NCBI GenBank assembly: GCA_023138835.1
Contig: JAGLOP010000006.1
Coordinates: 1 to 64,000 of the forward strand
Reading direction: 5' to 3'
Source: Arcobacteraceae bacterium
GTDB taxonomy: Bacteria > Campylobacterota > Campylobacteria > Campylobacterales > Arcobacteraceae
DNA length: 64,000 bases
The notes below the pieces were generated by a model. The model searched no databases, was not told the DNA's origin, and worked only from the letters and a program-made list of their open reading frames with translations. Below are positions 12,490 through 16,171 of the stretch, piece after piece. Within the stretch, counting starts at the first letter, position 1, and the number at the start of each line of letters is the position of its first letter. A program made the position numbers and the translations under genes.

Positions 12490-13419
12490 ATGTTAGATTT
12501 AGCAATAATTGGTGGTGGACCAGCAGGATTAACAGCAGGAATGTATGCTACTCGTGGTGGATTAAAAGATGTTACTATGTTTGAAAAAGGCTTACCTGGT
12601 GGACAAATTACTCAAAGTAGTGAGATAGAAAATTATCCAGGACAAATAGAAGTAGTTACAGGTATGGAACTTATGGATAAATGGCCGGATCAATGTAAAA
12701 GATTTGGGTTAAAACATGAAATGAGTGAAGTAAAACAAGTTGTAAAAAATGGTGAGATTTTTACTTTAACATTAAGTGGAGATAGTCAAATTAATGCAAA
12801 ATCAGTTTTAATAGCAACAGGAAGTGTACCTAGACCAGCTGGTATTAAAGGTGAAGCTGAATTTTTCGGTCGTGGTGTAAGTACTTGTGCCACTTGTGAC
12901 GGATTTTTTTACAAAAATAAAGATGTAGTTGTGATTGGTGGCGGAGATACTGCTATTGAAGAAGCTATATATTTAGCAAATATTTGTAAAATAGTTTATA
13001 TTGTACATAGAAGAGATGAATTTAGAGCTTCTCCGCATGAGGTGGAAAAACTAGCTAAATTTGACAATATCATACCAGTATTAAGCCATACAACAGAAGA
13101 GATTGTTGGTGATAATATGGGTGTAACTGGTGTAGTTGTGAAATCAAAAGAGACTGGTGAAACAAAAACTTTAGATGCTCTTGGAGCATTTATATTTGTA
13201 GGTCGTGATGTTTTAAATCAAACTTTAATCCAAGATGATGGAAGCTTTTTATGTGATGTAAATGAGTCTGGCGAAGTAAAAGTAGATTTAAAAATGAAAA
13301 CATCAGTTGAAGGACTATTTGCAGCAGGTGATATTAGAATTGATGCACCAAAACAAGTGGTATGTGCAGCAGGCGACGGGGCAGCAGCAGGTATTTCTGC
13401 TATTACATATTTACAATAA
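12490..13419 (+). CDS. trxB: Thioredoxin reductase
   Basis: NADPH-dependent flavoprotein that reduces thioredoxin. The N-terminal FAD-binding GGGPAGLTAGMYA motif starts near residue 8. The redox-active CATC pair is Cys133/Cys136. The NADPH-binding VVIGGGDTAIEEAIYL follows near 150, and the C-terminal FAD motif is GLFAAGDIR. At 309 residues it has the length of the low-molecular-weight bacterial type. An AAAAGG site precedes the ATG. Its stop is followed by a palindromic repeat and a convergent DUF1566 gene. Confidence 0.96.
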   Translation: MLDLAIIGGGPAGLTAGMYATRGGLKDVTMFEKGLPGGQITQSSEIENYPGQIEVVTGMELMDKWPDQCKRFGLKHEMSEVKQVVKNGEIFTLTLSGDSQINAKSVLIATGSVPRPAGIKGEAEFFGRGVSTCATCDGFFYKNKDVVVIGGGDTAIEEAIYLANICKIVYIVHRRDEFRASPHEVEKLAKFDNIIPVLSHTTEEIVGDNMGVTGVVVKSKETGETKTLDALGAFIFVGRDVLNQTLIQDDGSFLCDVNESGEVKVDLKMKTSVEGLFAAGDIRIDAPKQVVCAAGDGAAAGISAITYLQ

Positions 13420-13429
13420 GGTCACCCTA

Positions 13430-13453
13430 GTTCCCACTCAGGAGAGTTGGAAC
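13430..13453. repeat. GC-rich hairpin after trxB and downstream of a DUF1566 gene
   Basis: GTTCCCACTC and GAGTTGGAAC form a 10-bp stem with one mismatch and a 4-nt loop, followed by GAG. It is GC-rich for this genome. GTCACC is repeated at 13421-13426 and 13470-13475, flanking the hairpin. No T-run follows, so it is not an ordinary terminator. It could be a remnant of a dispersed palindromic repeat or, seen from the minus strand, a structured element 25 nt beyond the DUF1566 stop codon. Confidence 0.6.
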
Positions 13454-13478: not shown

Positions 13479-13907
13479 TCAATCGTTGTCTGCGGAACGA
13501 ACGCAACGAACATAAAAGGTATCAGTCGTCTTAGGATCCGGATAGCTTTCGCCGAGATCGAAGTTGACAACCCAAGCATTGGCAGGAATATTCTCATTTG
13601 TAGTAGACGACCAGTAATGGGAACTAACTACATTTATAAATGCACTACTTATAGAAGGATTATATGTACTTCTGTCTACTAACATATGAAGTTCATTAAA
13701 ATTTGCTAAATGCCAATCACTATAATCACCTAAAGTTAAAGCTTCACAATGAGTTATTGCATCTTCCCAATCTTTTGTAACACTGGCATCATCTTGCCAC
13801 ATAAGTCGTGTAGCAGTATCTATTACTACGCTTTTTTCATCATCTCTTATAAAATCTGCATTTGCCAGATTAACCAGCAACAATAAGCTTAATATATTTT
13901 TCTTCAT
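13479..13907 (-). CDS. Small secreted DUF1566 (Lcl C-terminal domain) protein
   Basis: A secreted or periplasmic protein of 142 residues made of a Sec signal peptide (about 1-17) and a single DUF1566 domain, which has a C-type-lectin-like fold in known members. Family marks are TRLMWQDD near residue 35, WHLANFNEL near 85, the YWSSTT segment near 115 and a terminal YVRCVRSAD. The last third is clearly richer in GC and in CGT, TTC, CTC and CCG codons than the start of the gene. Its final 31 coding bases nearly match those of the neighbouring lipoprotein gene. DUF1566 domains are known targets of diversity-generating retroelements; whether this is one is inference. The ATG has an AGGGAAA site. 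Confidence 0.8.
   Translation of the reverse strand: MKKNILSLLLLVNLANADFIRDDEKSVVIDTATRLMWQDDASVTKDWEDAITHCEALTLGDYSDWHLANFNELHMLVDRSTYNPSISSAFINVVSSHYWSSTTNENIPANAWVVNFDLGESYPDPKTTDTFYVRCVRSADND
13489..13519 (-). repeat. Shared 3'-terminal coding repeat, copy 1
   Basis: On the coding strand this encodes the end of the DUF1566 domain (TFYVRCVRSA). It matches 14017-14047 over 31 nt with two mismatches, of which 21 nt are identical. The core CGTTGCGTTCGTTCCGC contains no adenine on the coding strand. It is similar in position and composition to the initiation-of-mutagenic-homing end of retroelement target genes, but gene duplication would also explain it. Confidence 0.7.
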
Positions 13908-13934
13908 CTATTTTCCCTACCTTTTTTATTAAGT

Positions 13935-13956
13935 TGTAGCTATTTGCATAGCTACA
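13935..13956. repeat. Perfect 9-bp hairpin between the two DUF1566 genes
   Basis: TGTAGCTAT and ATAGCTACA pair perfectly around a 4-nt loop (TTGC on plus, GCAA on minus). It is 56 nt downstream of the lipoprotein gene stop and about 28 nt before the next start on the minus strand. There is no T-run on the minus strand. It may be a weak terminator, a repeat remnant or a recombination-related structure. Confidence 0.6.
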
Positions 13957-14012
13957 GTGTCCTTCAAAGGTCGCACAATGATTGTTGTACTCTCTCTAAA
14001 TTTTTCAAATTA

Positions 14013-15230
14013 TCAATCTGCGGAACGAACGCAACGAGCATAAACGGCAAAAGAATTAATAGTCATACCTACACGGCTATCAACGAAGTGGATATTCCAA
14101 ACATCGTTATTATTACTAGCACTTATAGTAGAAGACCGGTAATAGGAAATATTTGTATTAGTAAACACAGCATTAATTGCAGGCGAAGAAGTACCTTTAT
14201 CTGCAAGCTGAACAAACTCCTCAATAGTAGGCAATCTCCAAGCCGTACTTCCCCCTAAATTTAAATTATCACAATAAGCAATAGCATCAGTCCAATTATA
14301 TGTATTGTTATCATCCTCTTTTTGCCAGATTAATGTTGTGGCATTATCAGTTACTGTACCATTAGCGTTATCTGTGTAGCTTCTAGTTATTCCACGACTT
14401 AAAGTACCATCATCTTGTGTACCTGTTCCAGAAGTTCCGTCATTATCATATCCTTCCGTTATTTGCCCCGTTTTTAGAATAGTTCTATTCCCATCAACCA
14501 ATGAAGATATAATTGAGTTTTTATAATTTTTAACAAAATCTTCCATTCCTGAAGCAGTTCCGGTGTAAGAGTTAACTTTATTTAGAAAAATCCTAATTTT
14601 AAATTTACCATTTGAAGCAGAAGCATTTGAATCTGTATGGGCTCTTAAAAAAAGATTATCCAAACTTCCTTCATTTGCATTTATATTTGTTTTAAAAGTG
14701 GTTAGTAAAGTATCATCTTTTATCATCACATATAAAAGTTGAGATAGTTTTGATAGATTTAAATCATTTGAATTTATATAATCTACTGTAAACTCATCAA
14801 TTGTAGATATTCCTAATCCTAAATTAGCAAACTTAGATAATAATGTTGAATTATTTTCTAAAAATGTAGCAATAGGAGATAAGACACTACTACCACTTTG
14901 AGCAGTCATATTTATATCAAAAGAGGCATTTGTATCTTCCAGTTGACCGCCTGTTAAAGATAAAGGATATGTCGGACTACTTGCAAAAGTATATTTTCCA
15001 CTTGAACTATAAGTTGCTGTTTGTCCTAAAGCATCTTTTACTGTTGCATTTTTTATATATCCATCTACACCTGTTACAACTGTACCGCTTGTTGAAGATG
15101 ATCCACCTCCACTTCCACCACCACAACCTGTGAAAGTGATAGTTGATATTATTGTGGAAAGAAGTAGTAGAACCAGTTTCTGCTTAAGCACTCGCTTTTT
15201 TTTCCGAGAGTTTTTGATAATAGTTATCAT
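14013..15230 (-). CDS. DUF1566 domain lipoprotein
   Basis: A predicted lipoprotein of 405 residues. A basic N-terminus and hydrophobic segment (about 19-34) lead to the lipobox TFTGC, with Cys36 as lipidation site, then a Gly/Ser linker. Residues about 50-260 form an unrecognised extracytoplasmic region with a carboxypeptidase-like repeat look (VDGYIKNATVKDA). The C-terminal 120 residues are a DUF1566 domain with TTLIWQKEDD, WRLPTIEEF, YYRSSTIS and a closing YARCVRSAD. It precedes the second DUF1566 gene on the same strand. The final coding bases match that neighbour almost exactly. It may be surface-exposed. An AAGGA site precedes the ATG. Confidence 0.8.
   Translation of the reverse strand: MITIIKNSRKKKRVLKQKLVLLLLSTIISTITFTGCGGGSGGGSSSTSGTVVTGVDGYIKNATVKDALGQTATYSSSGKYTFASSPTYPLSLTGGQLEDTNASFDINMTAQSGSSVLSPIATFLENNSTLLSKFANLGLGISTIDEFTVDYINSNDLNLSKLSQLLYVMIKDDTLLTTFKTNINANEGSLDNLFLRAHTDSNASASNGKFKIRIFLNKVNSYTGTASGMEDFVKNYKNSIISSLVDGNRTILKTGQITEGYDNDGTSGTGTQDDGTLSRGITRSYTDNANGTVTDNATTLIWQKEDDNNTYNWTDAIAYCDNLNLGGSTAWRLPTIEEFVQLADKGTSSPAINAVFTNTNISYYRSSTISASNNNDVWNIHFVDSRVGMTINSFAVYARCVRSAD
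14017..14047 (-). repeat. Shared 3'-terminal coding repeat, copy 2
   Basis: This is the partner of 13489-13519. The first 21 nt on the plus strand are identical. The two mismatches (T/C and T/G on the coding strand) are both of the kind expected if a common template carried adenine there. It encodes AVYARCVRSA at the end of the lipoprotein. Confidence 0.7.
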
Positions 15231-15397: not shown

Positions 15398-16171
15398 ATG
15401 TTAAAAGTTGGAATTTTAGGAAGTACGGGTAGAGTTGGTTCTTTACTTATCGATGATTTAGATATTGATGAAGAGTTAAGTGTAGGTTCAGTGCATGTAT
15501 TTGATGAATTAAAAAAAGTTTTGCCTGAGGGTACTGTTGTAACAAATGATATGCTTACATTGCTAGACGCTTGTGATGTTGCTATTGATTTTAGTGCTCC
15601 TACAGCTACTGAAGATTTATTATCTACGATTGTAAAAGCAGGTGCAGGAAAACCACTTGTAATTGCAACAACTGGATTTAATGAGCATCAAAAAAATCTT
15701 TTAATAGAAGCTTCTAAAGTGGTACCGATTCTTTATGCTACAAATATGAGTTTGGGTGTGGCAGTATTAAATAAACTAGTCGCTCTTGCTTCAAAAGCTT
15801 TAGCTGAATTCGATTGCGAAATTGTTGAACAGCATCATAGACATAAAGTTGACTCTCCAAGCGGAACAGCTTTAACTTTGGCAGAACATGCAGCAGATGC
15901 AAGAGGACTTAACCTTGATGATGTAAGAGTATCTGGAAGAGATGGGATAATTGGTGCTAGAACTAAAGATGAGATAGCTGTTATGAGCCTAAGAGGTGGA
16001 GATATAGTAGGTCGCCATACTGCAGGATTTTATAATGATGGTGAATTTATAGAATTAAATCATACAGCAACAAGCAGAAATACTTTTAGTAAAGGTGCTA
16101 TCAAAGCAGCTAAATGGATAATAAATCAAGATGCTGGATTATATAGTATAAATGATTGTTTAGGATTATAA
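15398..16171 (+). CDS. dapB: 4-hydroxy-tetrahydrodipicolinate reductase
   Basis: Reduces hydroxy-tetrahydrodipicolinate with NAD(P)H in the diaminopimelate/lysine pathway. The nucleotide-binding GILGSTGRVGSL motif is at residues 5-16. The catalytic and substrate segment EQHHRHKVDSPSGTAL at about 145-160 holds the conserved His and Lys. Length (257) is normal. purF begins one base after its stop, so the two are co-transcribed, an order also known in Campylobacter. Confidence 0.95.
   Translation: MLKVGILGSTGRVGSLLIDDLDIDEELSVGSVHVFDELKKVLPEGTVVTNDMLTLLDACDVAIDFSAPTATEDLLSTIVKAGAGKPLVIATTGFNEHQKNLLIEASKVVPILYATNMSLGVAVLNKLVALASKALAEFDCEIVEQHHRHKVDSPSGTALTLAEHAADARGLNLDDVRVSGRDGIIGARTKDEIAVMSLRGGDIVGRHTAGFYNDGEFIELNHTATSRNTFSKGAIKAAKWIINQDAGLYSINDCLGL

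Follow-up and report, generated by a model that had tools for sequence, protein, structure and literature searches.

Two adjacent minus-strand genes in the window (i.e., the whole 64,000-nt stretch of DNA analyzed here) raise the question of how they acquired 3' ends that look like the work of a diversity-generating retroelement (DGR), and whether such an element, located elsewhere in the genome, still rewrites them, as the preliminary description had proposed. We consider it very probable that the pair (13479-13907, 142 aa, and 14013-15230, 405 aa) is the relic of a two-target DGR whose core, consisting of Avd, the template repeat (TR) and the reverse transcriptase (RT), was deleted in place, and that its variable regions (VRs) are most likely frozen. 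The window belongs to a genome (G000) with an assembly of 2.12 Mb that is 86.6% complete; its contigs are referred to as C9, C25, etc.

Both proteins carry at their C-terminal end the domain Lcl_C (Pfam PF07603; E-values of 3e-28 for the short and 1e-27 for the long gene), the present name of DUF1566, the domain that had been recognized there before. The long gene (14013-15230, minus strand), the orthologue of the target that lies upstream of Avd in intact elements (see below), encodes a putative lipoprotein (TFTGCGGGS at its N-terminus) with a linker region preceding the Lcl_C domain. The short gene (13479-13907, minus strand), orthologous to the short target that follows the RT in two relatives (G001 and G068), starts with a signal-peptide-like N-terminus (MKKNILSLLLLVNLANA); both N-termini were read from the sequence. 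The VRs, which would be the first and the second of the former DGR, were placed by alignment to the TRs of sister elements at 14016-14142 in the long gene and at 13488-13617 in the short gene (both minus strand), the latter being one codon longer than these TRs. According to the literature, DUF1566 is the commonest Pfam domain of DGR targets and has a C-type lectin fold (PMC6642488). The two window proteins may function in ligand binding at the cell surface or as adhesins.

The 31-nt 3' tail common to the two genes, as reported in the preliminary description, is indeed a direct repeat with two mismatches located at both 3' ends (14017-14047 in the long gene and 13489-13519, CGTTGCGTTCGTTCCGCAGA, in the short gene, both on the minus strand). 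This IMH-like tail, 21 nt of which are still identical between the two genes, aligns as a homologue with the tails of intact DGR elements, and its 19-mer core occurs in the whole G000 assembly twice in the window, once at C9 with two mismatches, and nowhere else. Its codons (CGT TGC GTT CGT TCC GCA) include rare ones in G000, where CGT makes up 7.5% of the Arg, TCC 2.5% of the Ser, and TGC 17.5% of the Cys codons, whereas the four non-DGR paralogues with an Lcl_C domain that G000 also encodes have AGR or AAR at the tail codon positions. The shared tail is, therefore, not due to protein conservation alone. The enrichment in GC-rich codons relative to the rest of the genes was likewise confirmed: the GC content of the window VRs is 0.45 and 0.40, compared to 0.32 in the remainder of either gene, while no such rise occurs in the four non-DGR paralogues (VR GC of 0.28-0.33). 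The end of the short gene (13488-13493 and downstream; ..GCAGACAACGAT) is like the sequence that follows a TR tail (GCAGATAATGAT) and unlike that following the other VRs (GCAGATTGAT), which is possibly a trace of a past exchange between TR and VR.

Complete DGRs with this pair of targets exist in relatives of the window genome. In Arcobacteraceae bacterium GMC9 (G001; JAOZVJ010000088.1), a MAG and one of the two genomes of the same genus that were compared, and in Arcobacter sp. SZUA-1382 (G068; DQSS01000229.1), which belongs to the same family, a long Lcl_C target, Avd, the TR, the RT, and a short Lcl_C target follow each other in this order on one strand. In the sister loci, Avd was assigned to PF22296 (bAvd) and the RT, with the motifs YVDD and GLPIGNLTSQ, to PF00078. 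Mismatches between TR and VR are concentrated at adenines, i.e., 13 of 37 adenines versus 2 of 90 other positions for one VR of G001 and 17/37 versus 0/90 for the other, and 16/37 versus 0/90 and 11/37 versus 0/90 for the two VRs of G068. The same layout was found in G054 (Arcobacteraceae), where the mismatches are also adenine-specific (13/42 versus 1/84 and 18/42 versus 1/84), and in G100, from another family of the same order. The long and short genes of the window correspond to these DGR targets, with a nucleotide identity upstream of the VR of 72-78% (to G001 or to a second pair on C9 of the window genome). DGRs with DUF1566/Lcl_C targets have the same target domain and IMH-like 3' tail as the window locus but retain the core, whereas what persists in the window copy is the two targets plus remnants of the core, and Avd, TR and RT are absent. 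The same difference separates it from the cassettes of G001, G068, G054, and G100, where long and short targets match the window genes and the core has been kept, although the RT frame of G054 is apparently broken. At that locus (G054:C46:836-2067; L116), where the DGR is complete in all other respects, the RT is split over two frames, a repeat-like stretch is inserted in it and the VRs look freshly mutated; the core may be at the beginning of its loss here, or the assembly may be wrong. A separate DGR-like cassette was observed in a prophage-like region of G001 with an integrase nearby (G001:C112:14000-22852; L068); there, a target that carries GVNAGSRSSYWNNYVWYSSWDVGCRIACDHLKLV at its C-terminal end is accompanied by an Avd-like gene and an RT. 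A phage origin of the DGR was considered and rejected, since a search of viral contigs, able to detect close relatives only, yielded none for the G001 RT.

The fate of the core is recorded in the 105-nt spacer between the two window genes (13908-14012, minus strand), which, by comparison with the intact elements, is made up of three DGR-core pieces, in the order (on the coding strand) of the leader that follows the long VR, the leader that precedes the TR, and the 3' end of the RT. The first piece (13998-14012, minus strand), directly after the long VR, is identical to G068 at 15 of 15 positions and lies where it is expected, although its score alone is within the range of shuffled sequences. 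The second (13966-14003, minus strand; 38 nt) shares 89% identity with the leader that precedes the TR in G068, and its 3' part matches G001 at 20 of 20 positions. The third (13870-13968, minus strand) contains the last 32 codons and the stop of the RT frame (FEGHCSYANSYNLIKKVGKIDEEKYIKLIVAG, versus FTGHCSHANSYKLIKKVGKIDEEKYIRDFVAS in G001) and is 89-91% identical to the intact elements; the frame is open to its own stop in the window and overlaps the start of the short gene in another frame, just as in an intact cassette. When the spacer was compared with a small set of sequences, matches to the core reached E-values as low as 3e-13, and in 1000 shuffles the scores of the second and third piece (46 and 73) were not reached (maxima of 31 and 36, respectively). 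The first two pieces join at a shared AAATTT microhomology, and the second junction, as read by eye, lies at or near TTT. Since the spacer is built from these three remains, the two targets have lost Avd, the TR, and almost the whole RT from the interval between them. We infer that the RT tail was retained because it overlaps the start of the short gene and carries the ribosome-binding region of that gene.

On either side, the cassette is bordered by trxB (12490-13419, plus strand) and dapB (15398-16171, plus strand). These two genes are directly adjacent in G001, in G002 and in several other Arcobacteraceae, and the cassette is, therefore, an insertion in the lineage of the window. At its edge, beside trxB, lies a REP-like palindrome (GTTCCCACTCTCCTGAGTGGGAA; 13431-13453, minus strand), a dispersed repeat in the genus of which, allowing up to 3 mismatches, 8 copies were counted in G000, 9 in G001, and none in G002. 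In G001, a copy of it lies in the empty gap between trxB and dapB. This downstream hairpin was considered as a DGR recognition hairpin, a role that we rejected because it is dispersed, with 8-9 copies per genome, and occurs at this empty site. In the scenario that we favor, a complete cassette (long lipoprotein-like target, Avd, TR, RT, and short secreted target) would have landed between trxB and dapB near the palindrome. During an active phase, the RT, together with Avd, would have made copies of the TR that were erroneous at adenines, and the 3' ends of both targets would have been rewritten with them, which would be the reason why both possess the GC-rich, adenine-poor tail (IMH). Subsequently, two or more deletions within the cassette, occurring at short repeats, would probably have taken out Avd, and the TR together with nearly all of the RT. 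Both target genes would have been left intact, along with the last stretch of the RT, which overlaps the start of the short gene, and the VRs would now most likely be frozen, changing by ordinary mutation.

The present state of the VRs is consistent with this. In intact elements the two VRs are more alike than their flanks (0.80 versus 0.62 and 0.84 versus 0.55), because one template feeds both, whereas in the window the identity of the VR pair (0.55) is lower than that of the flanking domain (0.61). The window VRs are thus no longer homogenized (55% nucleotide identity versus 78-84% for the C9 pair and the intact elements), and, as the mutator core has also been deleted from between them, the two genes are most likely frozen variants. 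A memory of the active phase appears to persist. Compared with a sister TR, used as a proxy since the own TR is gone, the window VRs show an excess of differences at template-adenine sites that is weakly significant for each VR (p of about 0.01-0.02, i.e., 0.012 and 0.018), while in G000 the four paralogues of non-DGR type showed no excess (p of 0.75-0.95). We read this as a fossil signal under ordinary drift. The IMH-like tail, with its identical 21 nt in both genes, might still work.

This bears directly on the idea of service in trans. The preliminary description was correct in recognizing retroelement-type VRs, since orthologous pairs flank a complete Avd-TR-RT core in G001 and G068, but its inference that the genes are trans targets of a distant element is not supported, because the element stood between both genes and was deleted in place, as the 105-nt scar testifies. 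One may still envisage that an unassembled DGR elsewhere in the genome continues to diversify both genes and that the local core was lost as redundant. The open reading frames and IMH-like tails of both genes are intact, 13% of the genome is unassembled and could harbor an RT and TR, the VRs of the C9 pair, which belongs to the same genome, look fresh (identity between the long and short VR of 0.78 versus 0.60 upstream), and remote targets as well as loss of redundant cores are known from other bacteria (PMC4891356; PMC3521204). We nevertheless regard this as rather improbable. The genome-wide search for an RT and a template repeat yielded neither in the 86.6%-complete assembly: no RT was detected with PF00078 or the sister RT (the scar keeping its last 32 codons), no match to Avd, and no TR-like extra copy of the tail or VR. 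Furthermore, the window VRs are as divergent as ordinary paralogues, the loss of their concerted similarity arguing against current service in trans, and the short gene has an extra codon. Finally, the IMHs of the window and C9 differ at 2 of 19 bases, so that a single TR would match them unequally.

Far less likely is that the core-less pair is ancestral and that other lineages acquired Avd, TR, and RT between the two genes by insertion: core-less pairs are widespread in the family, but an insertion would not leave in the spacer pieces of three separate core parts, in order and with the RT tail in frame. That the genes are ordinary paralogues with no DGR history, the tail they share being a conserved motif at the C-terminus whose codons are biased, can practically be dismissed, for although VRCVR-like ends are frequent in Lcl_C proteins and G000 holds a long/short pair without DGR features (C25:72 kb), the core scraps in the spacer already refute it, and both the rare codons of the tail and the A-site excess are missing from the non-DGR paralogues.

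The window locus, as a relic of a DGR that lost its core, is not the only one of its kind. A second core-less Lcl_C pair in the same genome (G000:C9:45555-46349; L063:7553-9187) has a spacer of 22 nt, strong NNC-type variation and concerted similarity of its VRs (0.78 versus 0.60), an A-site excess relative to the sister TR (p of 0.011 and 0.019), and an IMH that differs from that of the window. Because its VRs are still concerted though the core is absent, this core was presumably lost later, or the pair is served by an unassembled element. In G008, a 99%-complete genome, a pair (G008:C16:138104-138976; L122) has VRs that look DGR-made (p of 0.0013 and 0.008 versus the TR of G054), and searches of this genome for an RT, Avd, or TR were negative. 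Decayed cores were encountered in G127 (Avd fragments and the RT 3' end) and in Sulfurimonas MAGs (RT scraps in L165; an Avd scrap and an RT-tail-like frame in L163), RT tails or tail-like frames being retained in all three. The G008 pair and these decayed cores indicate that loss of the core with retention of the targets is recurrent in the Campylobacterota. In a tree of the short gene, copies with and without a core are interspersed, with weak support inside the group of the window, C9, G001, and G068 (the row G054C12 was mis-framed and is to be disregarded). A conserved long and short Lcl_C pair with AT-rich ends and AGR arginine codons was also observed in G000 (C25:70226-73095; L064:6227-9095) and G001 (C51; L123:907-4126); its conservation without DGR features suggests that pairing a long with a short gene is functional in its own right.

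Loss of a DGR that leaves its targets behind is already known. In Treponema denticola, target genes remain after DGR loss in strains without RT and TR (PMC4891356). As in the window, targets with A-biased VRs, many of them lipoproteins, outlast the core, but there the loss was inferred by strain comparison, whereas in the window a scar of core pieces lies between two targets, and both phylum and gene layout differ. In Pseudogulbenkiania NH8B, distal targets lie beside a strongly mutated RT gene (PMC3521204); this duplicated DGR cassette without RT has likewise kept its targets, but a functional DGR is present elsewhere in that genome while none was found in G000. The literature searched contained nothing specific on DGRs in Arcobacter or Campylobacterota. 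What the window locus adds is the readable deletion scar, together with a series of decay stages. DGR endings are rarely visible at the sequence level, and the scar in the window names the parts that were lost, while in related genomes this two-target cassette can be seen intact, in partial decay, and completely emptied. Tentatively, and with considerable reservation, one could imagine that two-target DGRs of the Campylobacterota repeatedly lose their core and keep both targets, i.e., that they "diversify, then freeze," with RT loss fixing a useful receptor pair and the RT 3' end being kept since it overlaps and drives the short gene. Genes that have DGR-like variable ends but no nearby RT can turn out to be frozen relics and are not necessarily remote targets.
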